64,000 bases of DNA, from contig NZ_CP009832.1 of the NCBI RefSeq assembly GCF_000959525.1, forward strand, positions 1,116,001 through 1,180,000. Direction: 5' to 3'. Position 1 is the first letter of the stretch. The number at the start of each line of letters is the position of its first letter. This document shows positions 42,369 to 60,415 of this stretch, piece after piece. This DNA comes from Burkholderia multivorans ATCC BAA-247. GTDB taxonomy: Bacteria > Pseudomonadota > Gammaproteobacteria > Burkholderiales > Burkholderiaceae. Under the pieces are notes generated by a model, which was not told the origin of the DNA, ran no database searches, and was given only the letters and a program-made list of their open reading frames with translations. Both the position numbers and the translations under genes were made by a program.

Positions 42369-42397
42369 TCGGCAACAGTCGGGCCGCTTGTTATACT
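42369..42397 (+). promoter_or_regulatory. Promoter of the DUF2946/TonB-receptor operon
   Basis: TCGGCA (42369-42374), 17-bp spacer and TATACT (42392-42397). The transcript would begin about 20 bp before the DUF2946 start codon. Confidence 0.6.
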
Positions 42398-42422: not shown

Positions 42423-42812
42423 ATGAAACGAACGACGCGATGGATCGGCCTGGTTTGGCTGGCGCTGGTACTGAACGTACTGTCGCCCGTCATCGGCTAT
42501 GCGCGCGTCGCGTCGAGCGGCTCCGGCCCGCTGACGCTCGAATTGTGCAGTGCGGCGGGCGCACGCCATGTCGCGCTCGCGCAGGCGGACGACGATCGCG
42601 CCGCGTCGTCGTTCGATCACGCCGGCGTGCCGCACTGCGTGTACTGTCCCGGCTTTGCGGCGAACCTCGCGCTCGGCGCGAGCATGCCGCCGGTGCCCGG
42701 CTTCGTGCGGGCCTTCGCGTACCGCGCCGTCGCGCCCGTCGCCGCGGACGTCAGACGCACGGGCCTGCGTCTCGCGCAACCGCGCGCTCCCCCTGAAAAC
42801 ACCGCGATCTGA
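42423..42812 (+). CDS. DUF2946 family protein, possible copper-sensing upstream ORF
   Basis: A 129-residue protein with an N-terminal hydrophobic signal (MKRTTRWIGLVWLALVLNVLSPVIGYA) and the DUF2946 core with C72 and C75 in HCVYCPGF, preceded by His66 and His71. In Bordetella pertussis a DUF2946 ORF (CruR) was described as a copper-responsive upstream ORF that governs the downstream TonB-receptor gene; that comparison is from memory. Here the ORF likewise precedes a TonB-dependent receptor by 136 bp. The metal role is inferred. Confidence 0.78.
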   Translation: MKRTTRWIGLVWLALVLNVLSPVIGYARVASSGSGPLTLELCSAAGARHVALAQADDDRAASSFDHAGVPHCVYCPGFAANLALGASMPPVPGFVRAFAYRAVAPVAADVRRTGLRLAQPRAPPENTAI

Positions 42813-42948
42813 TTGACGTCGTCCGTGCGCCGCTGCGGCGCACGGTCCGCCGCCCGCGGCCGATGCCGCGCGCCGCGCGCTTGCTGCACGGCGCGCCGGC
42901 GTCCGCATCTGCACGGCGGTATCCGGTTACGTTTTCAGGACACCCTCC

Positions 42949-45324
42949 ATGTTGCTCATCCTTGCCGCGCGACCGACGCGCGGCCGGCTCGCGCTGGCGT
43001 GCGCGGCCGCTTTTGCCTTGCCCGGCGCATATGCGGCATCGTCCGACAGCGCGCCGACCGATCCGATCCGCGATCCGGCGAATCGCTCCGCGCGGGCCGC
43101 CGTGCCCGCGGCTTCCGCGGCTTCGGCTGCTTCCGCCGCTGCCGCCGATCCGGCCGGCGACACGCTGAGTGCCGTCAGCGTGACGGCCCAGCGCCAGCCG
43201 CTCGATCCCGATACGCCGGCCGTCGTCGAATCGATGACGCGCGAGCGCATCGACACGCATACCAACGTCACCACCGAGGATGCGCTGAAGTACGCACCGA
43301 ACCTGATGGTGCGCAAGCGCTATATCGGCGACCGCAACAGCGTGTTCGCGGGCCGCGACTTCAACGAGCTGCAGAGCGCGCGCGGCCTCGTGTACGCGGA
43401 CGGCCTGCTGTTGTCGAACCTGCTCGGTTCGAGCTATGCGTATCCGCCGCGCTGGTCGCTGATCGCGCCCGACGACATCGCGCGCGTCGACGTGCTGTAC
43501 GGCCCGTTTTCGGCGCTGTATCCGGGCAATGCGATCGGCTCGACGGTGCTGCTCACCACGCGGCGGCCGGACAAGCTCGAGGCGTCGCTGTCGACGCAAT
43601 TCTTCACGCAGCGCTATCGCGACGGCTACGGATTCGCCGACAGCTTCGGCGGCAATCATCAGACTGCGCGAATCGCGAACCGCATCGGCCGCTTCTGGTT
43701 CTCGCTGTCGCTCGACCGGCTCGAGAACGACGGTCAGCCGATGCAGTACGCTAGCCCGAACGCGAGCTACAACGCGAAACTCGGCCGCGCGGTGCCCGTC
43801 ACGGGCGCCGCAACCGACATCGGGCCGAACGGCAAGGCGCGCACGATCGTCGGCGCGCAATCGCTCGAGCGCACCGAGCAGATCAACGAAACCGTGCGGA
43901 TGGGCTATGCGTTCACCGACCGCGTCGACGCGACGCTGACGCTCGGGCACTGGGAGAACCACTACCGCCAGCACGGCGACACGTTTCTGCGCGACGCGGC
44001 CGGCCAGCCGGTCTACGGCGGCAACGTGTCGGTCGGCGGGCAGAGCATGACGATTGCGCCCGGCGCATTCGCGCCGCAGCGCGGCGACCAGGAGAACTGG
44101 CTGTACGCGTTCGGGCTCAACGGCCGGCTCGCCTCGGGCTGGCGGCTGTCGGGCATCGTGTCGGCGTACGACGTGTCGCGCGACGTGCTGCGCGCCGCGT
44201 CTACCGCGCAGGGCGGGGCGGGCACGCTGTTCCAGGGCGACGGCACCGGCTGGCGCACGCTCGACCTGAAGGCCGAAGCGCCCGAGGTGCACGGCCATGC
44301 GTTCACGTTCGGCTATCACTACGACAACTATTTCCTGCGCAACGTGACGTACAACACGGCCGACTGGCTGAACGGTCCGGTCACGTCGCTCGCCAGCGTC
44401 TATCGCGGCGATACGCGCACGCGGGCGCTCTACGCGCAGGACGCATGGCGCTTCGCGCCGGGCTGGCTCGCGACGCTCGGGCTGCGCTACGAGCGCTGGG
44501 ACGCCTACGGCGGCGCGCTCGGCAACGCGAGCGGCACGTTCGGCTATGCGGATCGCAGCGCCAACGCGCTGTCGCCGAAAGTTGCGCTGCAATGGGATGC
44601 GACCGACGTGTGGCGCTTCCGGCTGTCGTTCGCGACCGGCACACGTTTTCCGACGGTCGGCGAGCTGTTCCAGGGGACGATCTCGAATAACGCGATCGTC
44701 AACAACAATCCGAGCCTGCGCCCCGAAAAGGCGATCGACTGGGACTTCACCGCCGAGCGCGACGTCGGCGTCGGCGTCGTGCGCGCGAGCGTGTTCCAGA
44801 GCGATCTGCGCGATTCGATCTACAGCCAGACGACGGTCGCCGGCGCCTCGACGGTCACCAACATCTCGAACGTCGACCGCGTGCGCGTGCGCGGCGTCGA
44901 ACTCGCGTTCAGCGGCGAAAACGTCGGGCTCAAGGGACTCGCGATCGACGCGAACGTATCGGCGAGCAACGCGCAGATTCTCGCCGATGCCGCCAACCCC
45001 GCGTACGTCGGCTCGCGCTTTCCGCGCATTCCGCGGATGCGCGCGAATCTGCTCGCGTCGTATCGCTTCGACGAGCACTGGCTCGCGAGCGTCGGCGTGC
45101 GCTATTCGGGGCGGCAGTTCAACACGCTCGACAACAGCGACGTGAATCCCGACGTTTATGGCGGCACGAGCGCGTTTACGGTCGTCGACGTGAAGGCGCG
45201 CTATCGCTTCGATCGTCACTGGACCGCATCGGTCGGCATCGACAACCTGACGGACCGCCGCTACTACGTGTTCCACCCGTATCCGGGTCGCACTTTCTAT
45301 GGAGAACTGAAATGGTCGCTGTGA
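42949..45324 (+). CDS. TonB-dependent outer-membrane receptor
   Basis: A 791-residue receptor that imports a metal or metal chelate with energy from TonB-ExbBD. It has a signal peptide (to about GAYA, residue 29), an Ala/Ser/Asp-rich linker, a TonB-box-like segment LSAVSVTA near 75-80, the plug domain (TTEDALKYAPNLMVRKRY, then VDVLYGPFSALYPGNAIG) and a 22-strand barrel ending GELKWSL. It follows a DUF2946 gene and overlaps a periplasmic BNR-repeat gene by 13 bp. Copper is the best guess from context; other substrates (haem, siderophore) are not excluded. Confidence 0.9.
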   Translation: MLLILAARPTRGRLALACAAAFALPGAYAASSDSAPTDPIRDPANRSARAAVPAASAASAASAAAADPAGDTLSAVSVTAQRQPLDPDTPAVVESMTRERIDTHTNVTTEDALKYAPNLMVRKRYIGDRNSVFAGRDFNELQSARGLVYADGLLLSNLLGSSYAYPPRWSLIAPDDIARVDVLYGPFSALYPGNAIGSTVLLTTRRPDKLEASLSTQFFTQRYRDGYGFADSFGGNHQTARIANRIGRFWFSLSLDRLENDGQPMQYASPNASYNAKLGRAVPVTGAATDIGPNGKARTIVGAQSLERTEQINETVRMGYAFTDRVDATLTLGHWENHYRQHGDTFLRDAAGQPVYGGNVSVGGQSMTIAPGAFAPQRGDQENWLYAFGLNGRLASGWRLSGIVSAYDVSRDVLRAASTAQGGAGTLFQGDGTGWRTLDLKAEAPEVHGHAFTFGYHYDNYFLRNVTYNTADWLNGPVTSLASVYRGDTRTRALYAQDAWRFAPGWLATLGLRYERWDAYGGALGNASGTFGYADRSANALSPKVALQWDATDVWRFRLSFATGTRFPTVGELFQGTISNNAIVNNNPSLRPEKAIDWDFTAERDVGVGVVRASVFQSDLRDSIYSQTTVAGASTVTNISNVDRVRVRGVELAFSGENVGLKGLAIDANVSASNAQILADAANPAYVGSRFPRIPRMRANLLASYRFDEHWLASVGVRYSGRQFNTLDNSDVNPDVYGGTSAFTVVDVKARYRFDRHWTASVGIDNLTDRRYYVFHPYPGRTFYGELKWSL

Positions 45325-46571
45325 AATCGATCGTCGCCGGCTGCGCGCTGTGGCTCGCGGCGCTGTCGTCGGCCGGCGCGCACGATGCGCCGGCGGCCGC
45401 CGATCCGCATGCCGCGCACATGAGCATGTCGGGCGCGCCCGCGCAACAGAAGGCACCGCTCGCGACCGGCGCCGCGTTCGACGCGCAGCATCGGCTGTGG
45501 GTCGCGTGGGTCGAAGGCGCGCATGTCGTCGTCGCGCACTCCGACGACGCGGGCCGCACCTTGTCCGCGCCGGTCGTCGTCAATGCGATGCCGGAGCCGA
45601 TCTACACGAGTGCGGAGAATCGCCCGAAGGTCGCGACGAGCCCGGACGGGCGCGCGGTCTACGTGTCGTGGTCGATGCCGCTCGATGCGCCGTACACCGG
45701 CATGGTCCGCTTCTCGCGTTCGCTCGACGGCGGCGCGACCTGGAGCGTGCCGACGACCGTGCATCGCGATCGGCAGGCGATCACGCACCGCTTCGACATG
45801 ATGGCCGTCGATCGGGCCGGCAATATCGCGATCGCGTGGATCGACAAGCGCGACCTCGTCGCCGCCAAGGCCGCGGGGCGCAGCTACGATGGCGCGGCCG
45901 TTTACTACGCGGTGTCGCGCGACGGCGGCGCATCGTTCGAGCCCGAGCGCAAGGTGACCGATCACACGTGCGAGTGCTGTCGGATCGCAATGACGGTCGA
46001 TCCGGCCGGCCGCATCCAGGCGGCCTGGCGCAACGTGTTTCCGGGGCAGATCCGCGACCATGCGCTCGCGGTGCTGCCGGTATCGGCGTCGGAGCCCGTC
46101 GTGCCGCTGCGCGCGACGTTCTCGAACTGGCATGTCGAAGCGTGTCCGGAGCACGGGCCCGCGCTCGCGATCACGCCGGACGGCACGCGCCATCTCGCCT
46201 GGTTCGGCGTCGTCGGCGGCCGCGCCGACGTGTTCTATTCGCGCATCGGCGCGGACGGCCAGCCGCGCGGCACGCCGTGGGCCTTCGGTGCGAATCCGGC
46301 GGCTCCGGTCGAGCAGGCGTCGCATCCGGCACTCGTATCGCACGGCGATGTCGTGTGGCTCGCCTGGAAGGCGTTCGACGGCGATGCGATGCAGATCAAG
46401 CTGCGCCGGTCCGACGATCGCGGCGAACACTGGTCGGCGCCGCGCGTGATTGCCTCGACGTCGGGTGCGAGCGACAACCCGCAACTGCTCGACGATGCGG
46501 GCCGCATCTATCTGTCGTGGCGCACGCGCAACGACGGTTACCGGCTGATCGCGGTGGAGGACGGGCAATGA
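45312..46571 (+). CDS. Exported BNR/sialidase-fold protein with a CECC motif
   Basis: A 419-residue exported protein with a signal peptide (cleavage near SAGAHDA) and a beta-propeller of sialidase (BNR/Asp-box) type: SDDAGRTLSAP, RSLDGGATWSVP, SRDGGASFEPE and RSDDRGEHWSAP. After the signal comes a His/Met-rich tract DPHAAHMSMSG, and HTCECC at residues 218-223; both are suited to binding copper. Catalytic sialidase residues were not identified, so it may be a binding protein rather than an enzyme. Its start overlaps the receptor end; its stop overlaps the next gene by ATGA. Confidence 0.85.
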   Translation: MVAVKSIVAGCALWLAALSSAGAHDAPAAADPHAAHMSMSGAPAQQKAPLATGAAFDAQHRLWVAWVEGAHVVVAHSDDAGRTLSAPVVVNAMPEPIYTSAENRPKVATSPDGRAVYVSWSMPLDAPYTGMVRFSRSLDGGATWSVPTTVHRDRQAITHRFDMMAVDRAGNIAIAWIDKRDLVAAKAAGRSYDGAAVYYAVSRDGGASFEPERKVTDHTCECCRIAMTVDPAGRIQAAWRNVFPGQIRDHALAVLPVSASEPVVPLRATFSNWHVEACPEHGPALAITPDGTRHLAWFGVVGGRADVFYSRIGADGQPRGTPWAFGANPAAPVEQASHPALVSHGDVVWLAWKAFDGDAMQIKLRRSDDRGEHWSAPRVIASTSGASDNPQLLDDAGRIYLSWRTRNDGYRLIAVEDGQ

Positions 46572-47053
46572 AGCGGCTGATCGCATCGATGATGCTCGTG
46601 CTGGCGAGCGTGTCTGCATGGGCGGCGGCCACGCTGCAGCCGCTGCGCGCGACCGAGGTCGCGACGCTGTACGCCGGCGCGCACGAACGTCCGCTCGCGG
46701 TCGAAATCTGGTCGCTCGATTGCGGCTACTGCCGCGAGAACGCCGCGCATCTCGTCGCGTGGCAGCGTCGTCATCCGGACGTGCGTGTCGCGATGATCGC
46801 GATGGATGCGTACGACGACAATCGCGCGGCGCTCGAACAGGCGCTCGCGCAGATGAACCTGCCGCCGCAGATCGCGCAGTATGCGAATGCGGAGCCGATG
46901 CCCGAGCGTCTGCGCGCGGCGCTCGATGCGGGATGGCGAGGCGAGATGCCGCGCACCGTGTGGATCGCGCGCGACGGCGCGCGCGAGGCGCGCAGCGGGT
47001 TGCTCAGCGACGACGTGCTCGACGGCTGGCTGCAGCGCGCGAAGCGGCGCTGA
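46568..47053 (+). CDS. Exported thioredoxin-like (TlpA/DsbE-type) protein
   Basis: A 161-residue exported thioredoxin-fold protein. The signal peptide MKRLIASMMLVLASVSAWA is followed by EIWSLDCGYCRENAAHLV with the redox motif C52-G-Y-C55. The cis-Pro region appears as MPRTVWIARDG. It starts inside the stop codon of the BNR-repeat gene (ATGA), so the three genes are translationally coupled. It may keep the cysteines of the neighbouring CECC and CxxC proteins reduced or assist metal transfer; this is inference. Confidence 0.85.
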   Translation: MKRLIASMMLVLASVSAWAAATLQPLRATEVATLYAGAHERPLAVEIWSLDCGYCRENAAHLVAWQRRHPDVRVAMIAMDAYDDNRAALEQALAQMNLPPQIAQYANAEPMPERLRAALDAGWRGEMPRTVWIARDGAREARSGLLSDDVLDGWLQRAKRR

Positions 47054-59902: not shown

Positions 59903-60415
59903 TCAGCCCGCGAGCTTGCGGCGATGCCGCCAGAGGTTCGCGGCGACCGCGACGAGGATCACGGCGAACGCGATCAGCGCCCAGCCGGGCAGCAGGATCC
60001 CGAGGATCGGCGGATAGACGGTTTCGCACAGCCCGGCGACCTTGAACATGCCGGGGAACCAGTGCGCCGGCGGCAGGCTGTCGACGATCGGCTGCAGCGT
60101 GTCGAAGCCGCAGCTGAAGCCCGGATTCATCTGGATCGACAGGTGCCGCGCGGCCGTTCCGACGCCGGCGGCCGCCGCGATCGCGATCAGCAGCTCGAGC
60201 ACCCAGATTGCGCGCCAGTTGCGCATCCCGGCGGCGAGGAACGCGAAAATGCCGATCGCCGCGAAGAAGTAGCGCTGGATGATGCACAGCGGGCACGGAT
60301 CTTCGTTCTTCACGTACTGCAGATACAGCGCACCGGCGAGCAGGGCAATGCAGACCCATCCGAGCAGCATCAGCAGATGGCGTTGGCGGCGCAGCGCAAG
60401 CGTGGCTTCTTTCAT
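59903..60415 (-). CDS. dsbB: Disulfide bond formation protein B
   Basis: Inner-membrane quinone reductase that re-oxidises periplasmic DsbA. It has 170 residues with four membrane helices. The essential cysteines are all present: C41 and C44 in DPCPLC, C102 in GFSCGF and C130 in [10 protein letters not shown]. The ATG at 60415 starts [20 protein letters not shown]. Its gene is not linked to dsbA here. Confidence 0.94.

Follow-up and report, generated by a model that had tools for sequence, protein, structure and literature searches.

Operon layout

What does a compact four-gene operon in Burkholderia multivorans ATCC BAA-247 do, and what controls its expression? The operon lies at positions 42423 to 47053 on the forward strand of the window (the whole stretch of 64,000 nucleotides that was analyzed, to which coordinates refer), in a genome of 6.32 Mb in 3 contigs. 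It encodes, in order, a DUF2946 leader, a TonB-dependent receptor, a BNR-repeat protein (BNR), and a thioredoxin-like protein (TRX); the receptor and BNR genes overlap by 13 nt and the BNR and TRX genes by 4 nt. An earlier note on this DNA, which proposed copper acquisition under a copper-sensing upstream open reading frame (uORF), had described this layout, and our re-check of ORF coordinates and Pfam matches agrees with its gene order, coordinates, and both overlaps. The leader Cys72/Cys75 pair with His71, the BNR His/Met tract and CECC, and the TRX CGYC were likewise all confirmed in the translations. We regard it as probable that this is a copper-acquisition operon controlled by a CruR-type leader, in which BNR and TRX stand in the role of the PepSY_TM protein of related operons. 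The features on which this reading draws are as follows.

42369 to 42397, + strand: candidate sigma-70-like promoter (TCGGCA, 17, TATACT) 5' of the leader; consensus scan, 1 match against 0.4 expected in the region
42423 to 42812, +: cruR-type leader ORF (DUF2946), 129 aa; PF11162 E value 7e-15, motifs, and spacing
42633 to 42647, +: codons His71-Cys72-Val-Tyr-Cys75, presumed copper sensor; residue conservation, with the role taken from PMC9426467
42716 to 42872 (edges approximate), +: C>G bubble, candidate Rho-utilization region; sliding window, conserved in relatives
42783 to 42794, +: codons of the RAPP arrest motif, residues 121 to 124; R[AG]PP in 49 of 49 related loci
42813 to 42948, +: GC-rich spacer, 136 nt, 75% G+C; folding and aligned relatives
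About 42823 to 42845 and about 42868 to 42896, +: two GC hairpins in the spacer; folding and aligned relatives
About 42922 to 42940, +: small hairpin over the receptor ribosome-binding site (RBS); folding and aligned relatives
42949 to 45324, +: TonB-dependent receptor, 791 aa; PF00593 2.6e-54, Plug 1.4e-14
45312 to 46571, +: BNR-repeat periplasmic protein, 419 aa; PF13088 36.4 bits (cut-off 31.4)
45381 to 45431, +: BNR His/Met tract after a putative signal peptide; read from the translation
45969 to 45980, +: BNR codons of CECC (Cys220, 222, and 223); CxCC in 99 of 99 sequences
46143 to 46154, +: BNR codons Cys278-Pro-Glu-His281; CPx[HQ]G in 97 of 99 sequences, the remaining two having CP..G
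46568 to 47053, +: thioredoxin-like periplasmic protein TRX, 161 aa; below all Pfam and NCBIfam cut-offs
46721 to 46732, +: TRX codons of CGYC (Cys52 and Cys55); both cysteines in 26 of 26 aligned relatives

The leader ORF and the CruR type

In Bordetella pertussis, the DUF2946 leader CruR needs its C-terminal RAPP motif for receptor expression when copper is scarce; copper acts via the CxxC motif, after which Rho stops transcription ahead of the receptor gene (PMC9426467). The hallmarks of CruR are a CxxC motif followed after 45 residues by RAPP, a long spacer rich in G+C, and a C>G bubble, and its regulation is copper specific (PMC9426467). Arrest by Bordetella CruR has been shown in vitro, with RAPP and RGPP both supporting it (PMC12992588).

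The leader studied here is the first gene, followed by the 136-nt spacer and then the receptor gene. It matches PF11162 (DUF2946) with 56.3 bits against a cut-off of 23.7, and its N terminus, hydrophobic as judged by eye, may be an export signal. The RAPP motif, which the earlier note had missed, sits close to the C terminus of the 129-residue protein, and 45 residues separate the CxxC motif from it. Among 80 related loci, all 49 matches to the CruR profile have a CxxC-to-R[AG]PP spacing of 44 to 46 residues (45 in 37 leaders, 46 in 11, and 44 in 1), with RAPP as the arrest motif in 41 of them and RGPP in 8. Across 51 aligned leaders, with ORF starts set by a trimming rule, C72 and C75 are present in every row and H71 in 98%; the only invariant residues, numbered as in the present leader, are W7, A14, P22, C42, C72, C75, R121, P123, and P124. 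By its sequence, the leader is clearly a new member of the CruR type of copper-responsive uORF, and it would be expected to respond to copper in this organism. The proposal that it is a uORF of the Bordetella type is thereby supported by the DUF2946 match, the CxxC and RAPP motifs, their spacing of 45, and the C>G bubble.

The same genome carries a second CruR (CGYC, RAPP, spacing 45; L113:3768-4136, on contig C2 near 789794), which precedes an OprC-type receptor gene (TIGR01778, 848 bits; L113:4389-6350). Two successive CruR-like leaders occur in a reversed locus from another genome (L227; 3577-3945, 4094-5383, 5384-5797, and 5839-8076), one before a divergent BNR gene and the other, with RGPP, before a TonB receptor gene.

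The transcript between leader and receptor

The excess of C over G peaks within the leader ORF, about 54 nt from its end (sliding window). In this operon and all 49 loci compared with it (50 of 50), the C-over-G excess at the end of cruR exceeds that of the operon downstream. Ranked against downstream windows, the best 78-nt window at the cruR end reaches the top 5% in 49 of the 50; these counts should not be read as a P value, since the rows are related and the maximum was taken over many positions.

The spacer itself folds slightly better than shuffled sequences (z = -1.53, with 17 of 200 shuffles as good), and it has no Rfam match at an E value of ≤1. Both GC hairpins persist across 13 aligned Burkholderia spacers, with 98.6% of cells paired and 2 double changes, a conservation reached by 18 of 500 shuffles (rows L035, L043, and L050 of this alignment, A4, extend some bases into the receptor gene). 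Such conservation weakly suggests GC structure or a pausing region, and the hairpins are unneeded as a switch. The earlier note had suggested that the 136-nt spacer forms an mRNA structure responsive to translation of the uORF; this is unsupported, as the fold is near that of shuffles even though the two GC hairpins are kept, and a special mRNA switch was rejected on the z score, the shuffle count, and the lack of an Rfam match. Ribosome stalling combined with Rho fits better than an mRNA switch because of the C>G bubble, the RAPP motif, and the published CruR biology, and Rho would then be used at this operon.

Control could also run in the opposite direction, as in CutF, with a copper-induced stall opening a hairpin that masks the RBS, so that copper induces the operon rather than represses it. 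This type of mechanism is published (PMC9973294), and the small hairpin over the receptor RBS is indeed kept in the 13 aligned Burkholderia spacers. However, some 130 nt separate that hairpin from the stall site, its pairing includes no double change, and most CutF-like intergenic regions are shorter than 100 nt (PMC9973294). The leader moreover shows CruR spacing and carries a C>G bubble, and its closest studied relatives control uptake genes that are repressed by copper. We consider CutF-type control improbable for this operon.

The receptor

The receptor scores 42.7 bits against the OprC model (TIGR01778), far under the cut-off of 472.45, and the CrtA structure 9rvq is absent from its matches at an E value of ≤1e-5. 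We rejected its assignment to either OprC or CrtA on these two results. A true CrtA relative, the CruR-linked receptor of L180, matches 9rvq at 2.5e-100. Spacing patterns of the CrtA ligand residues (Y130, W265, E337, Q356, H358, and R395) gave no match in the receptor, and they missed the L180 receptor too; such patterns therefore cannot recognize CrtA. The receptor is 44 to 45% identical to the receptors of three loci with the order cruR-receptor-PepSY_TM (L145, L151, and L153). As it matches neither OprC nor CrtA, it is, judging from sequence, a third family of CruR-linked TonB receptors. It probably transports copper, which would enter as a copper chelate.

The BNR and TRX proteins

BNR/Asp-box repeats in the BNR protein exceed the cut-offs of both PF13088 and PF02012. 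The nearest named relative is from B. dolosa (92%; very near records were possibly left out of the search). In 99 BNR sequences, CxCC and CP..G are each present in all 99, and CPx[HQ]G is present in 97. TRX falls under all family cut-offs (best E value, 0.037 in Pfam and 0.025 in NCBIfam), and C52, C55, and a later proline, P128, are kept in 26 of 26 aligned rows; a later conserved proline is a thioredoxin-type feature. Elsewhere in the window, at 59903 to 60415 on the reverse strand, a small membrane protein carries CPLC and, by eye, resembles DsbB.

Sialidases carry a catalytic FRIP motif. No PDB sialidase matches the BNR protein below an E value of 0.6 and its translation contains no RIP sequence, so that a sialidase assignment found no support. 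The BNR/Asp-box repeats would nevertheless suit a sialidase-like enzyme that modifies a carbohydrate or chelator bound by the receptor, with TRX serving SCO or CoxB instead; in other bacteria, proteins of the TRX type do reduce ScoI and CoxB (work cited in PMC13038864). Against this, the conserved BNR residues are cysteines, and TRX tracks BNR rather than SCO among related loci. This alternative appears unlikely. Within the partial coverage of our literature search, nothing was found that places BNR or sialidase proteins in copper operons, and the terms BNR, sialidase, and thioredoxin are absent from PMC9426467 and PMC12914433; PMC12617631, PMC6769254, and PMC8424229 were also drawn on. A role in copper binding and redox chemistry is a well-placed but tentative reading of the BNR-TRX pair.

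Distribution of the BNR-TRX pair

A scan of genome contigs for BNR relatives gave 495 stretches, of which the best 80 were kept as the related loci. Among these 80, TRX follows BNR in 78, that is, in all but L106 and L064, the latter at a contig end. In 72 loci a TonB receptor gene is found upstream, on the same strand and no more than 4 kb away, and in 65 of them it is of the type described here; the other 8 loci have no receptor upstream. CruR is present in 49 loci and absent from 31. In Rhodanobacter and Luteibacter loci, the place of CruR upstream is taken by a POT transporter, a histidine kinase, and a Fis-type response regulator (Pfam checked in one locus only, L097:1742-5291), which suggests that these modules have another regulatory input.

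In a phylum-wide sample, 29 of 398 genomes gave a match (15 strong and 14 weak), and 13 loci were taken from 12 of them. A TRX gene comes after BNR in 11 of the 13 loci (not in L222 or L227), and a CruR-like ORF, identified by motif or profile, is upstream in 11 (not in L224 or L225), the lowest CruR profile score being 15 bits (L220). BNR genes without adjacent TRX occur in L106, L222, L227, and L273.

Copper-related neighbors, scanned in selected loci only, accompany BNR-TRX in alpha-, beta-, and gammaproteobacteria, where the pair occurs with CruR, TonB, PCuAC, SCO1, YcnI, or CopC/CopD genes. For example, the order in L215 is cruR-receptor-BNR-TRX-PCuAC-DUF1775/YcnI-CopC/CopD, and PCuAC also follows BNR-TRX in L216, L223, and L162. 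Other loci have SCO1, PCuAC, and an OprC-type receptor (L090), TonB-ExbB-ExbD (L084), or a Cu-oxidase/cupredoxin-domain protein (L100) after the pair. Together with the CruR hallmarks, these neighbors of related modules support, at the level of sequence, the copper acquisition role that had been proposed for the operon. The supposition that the last two genes are an added copper-handling module also found support: they form a copper-linked module that the Bordetella operon lacks, with PepSY_TM encoded at that position instead.

A metal other than copper, such as zinc, nickel, or iron, has some precedent. DUF2946 also occurs in the zinc-linked, Zur-activated czr operon of Caulobacter (PMC4176598), and CutF-like leaders with His only adjoin nickel/cobalt genes (PMC9973294). 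However, the leader here is of the Cys type, as in copper-specific CruR, and the same module neighbors PCuAC, SCO1, YcnI, CopC/CopD, and OprC. It is therefore very improbable that the operon serves another metal.

Alternation with PepSY_TM

A search of 150 family genomes for the receptor type, which scored at most seven first-look candidates per genome and may have missed some, gave 72 receptors in 70 genomes. By listed coordinates, and with loci not fetched, 28 of the 72 receptors adjoin a strong BNR match. The other 44 loci were fetched; the receptor gene is followed by PepSY_TM in 31, by BNR-TRX in 4, by BNR/TRX remnants in 5, and by neither in 4, of which one is at a contig end and one has an internal stop in the receptor match. 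The family total is thus 31 PepSY_TM and 32 BNR among 72 receptors. In a class-level sample, 8 of 274 genomes matched, and the 7 loci fetched from 7 of them comprise 3 with PepSY_TM, 2 with BNR but, as far as could be seen, no TRX (a contig end in one case), and 2 with neither. Neither partner was therefore found in 6 of 51 fetched loci, one of them at a contig end, and none of the 51 has both BNR and PepSY_TM. Nor was a PepSY_TM gene called in 93 BNR loci (the gene calls of L220 and L221 are faulty there).

The receptor tree of 46 rows implies at least 5 partner changes. With nine long-branch rows left out (37 rows), this minimum falls to 3, and the smaller tree rejects placing the PepSY_TM group in one clade (p-AU = 4.5e-5); one further locus, L288, was omitted from both trees for its doubtful reading frame.

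One genome (G059) has two such receptors, one followed by PepSY_TM and the other by BNR-TRX (L239 and L277), and offers a natural test bed for whether the two do the same job. Five loci from the genus Burkholderia (L261, L263, L264, L265, and L266) keep the receptor gene, and only the joined ends of BNR and TRX are left; the breakpoints differ among the five, as if the pair had been deleted as a unit. As the pair was lost and the receptor kept, BNR-TRX is dispensable in these genomes.

CrpH, the PepSY_TM protein of Bordetella, is a proposed periplasmic copper reductase (PMC13038864). Given this proposal and the alternation with PepSY_TM, BNR-TRX may perform a comparable step with thiols, and the simplest reading is that the pair would be a soluble, thiol-based counterpart of the PepSY_TM step.

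Proposed mechanism

We propose that, at little copper, the ribosome would stall at the leader RAPP motif and keep Rho off the C-rich transcript, so that RNA polymerase could continue into the receptor, BNR, and TRX genes. Copper at the CxxC motif of the nascent leader would relieve the stall, the ribosome would leave, and Rho would terminate transcription in the spacer. The receptor would import a copper chelate, and the BNR cysteines of CxCC and CP..H may take or release the copper, with TRX keeping the BNR thiols reduced or supplying electrons. BNR-TRX would thus fill the job of a CrpH-type PepSY_TM protein, and copper would pass to PCuAC/SCO-type chaperones for oxidases.

More tentatively, and with rather less confidence than in the operon's overall role, the pair could be a new soluble, thiol-driven system that strips copper from TonB-imported chelates, holding Cu(I) on a propeller cluster of CxCC and CP..H, and that has repeatedly replaced a heme-type PepSY_TM reductase under the same CruR switch.

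Comparison with known systems

For the release of copper from an imported chelate in the periplasm, the reductase role of CrpH is only proposed in Bordetella, and an alternative partner under the same switch and receptor family allows a direct genetic or biochemical test of that step. The comparison also makes copper import a likely function of the third TonB receptor family, and the BNR-TRX pair is an addition to the genes named in the CruR and CrtA papers searched.

Like the B. pertussis operon cruR-crtA(bfrG)-crpH(bp2921), this operon has CxxC, RAPP, 45 residues between them, and a long GC-rich spacer, with a TonB receptor gene next; it differs in its receptor family and in having BNR-TRX in place of PepSY_TM. 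The cruR-receptor-PepSY_TM operons (such as L145, L151, L153, L177, and L183, and the 31 of 44 fetched family loci) share CruR leaders and the same receptor type (about 45% identical in L145, L151, and L153) but have PepSY_TM where this operon has BNR-TRX. In pcuABCDE of Bradyrhizobium japonicum, a copper-starvation operon headed by a cruR homologue (PMC9426467), the available account describes a TonB receptor, PcuB, together with the PCuAC protein PcuC and the YcnI-like PcuD; BNR and TRX are not named in it, and the operon studied here is without PCuAC and YcnI. OprC (TIGR01778) is also a CruR-headed copper receptor, of which the same genome has one at 848 bits, in contrast to the 42.7 bits (cut-off, 472) of the receptor here. 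CutF-cutO of Rhodobacter capsulatus shares a leader peptide that is exported, binds copper, and has a proline-rich stall motif, but its control has the opposite sign, and its intergenic region is short and carries a masking hairpin (PMC9973294). Among CruR copper-uptake operons, the arrangement of this receptor with BNR-TRX is new.
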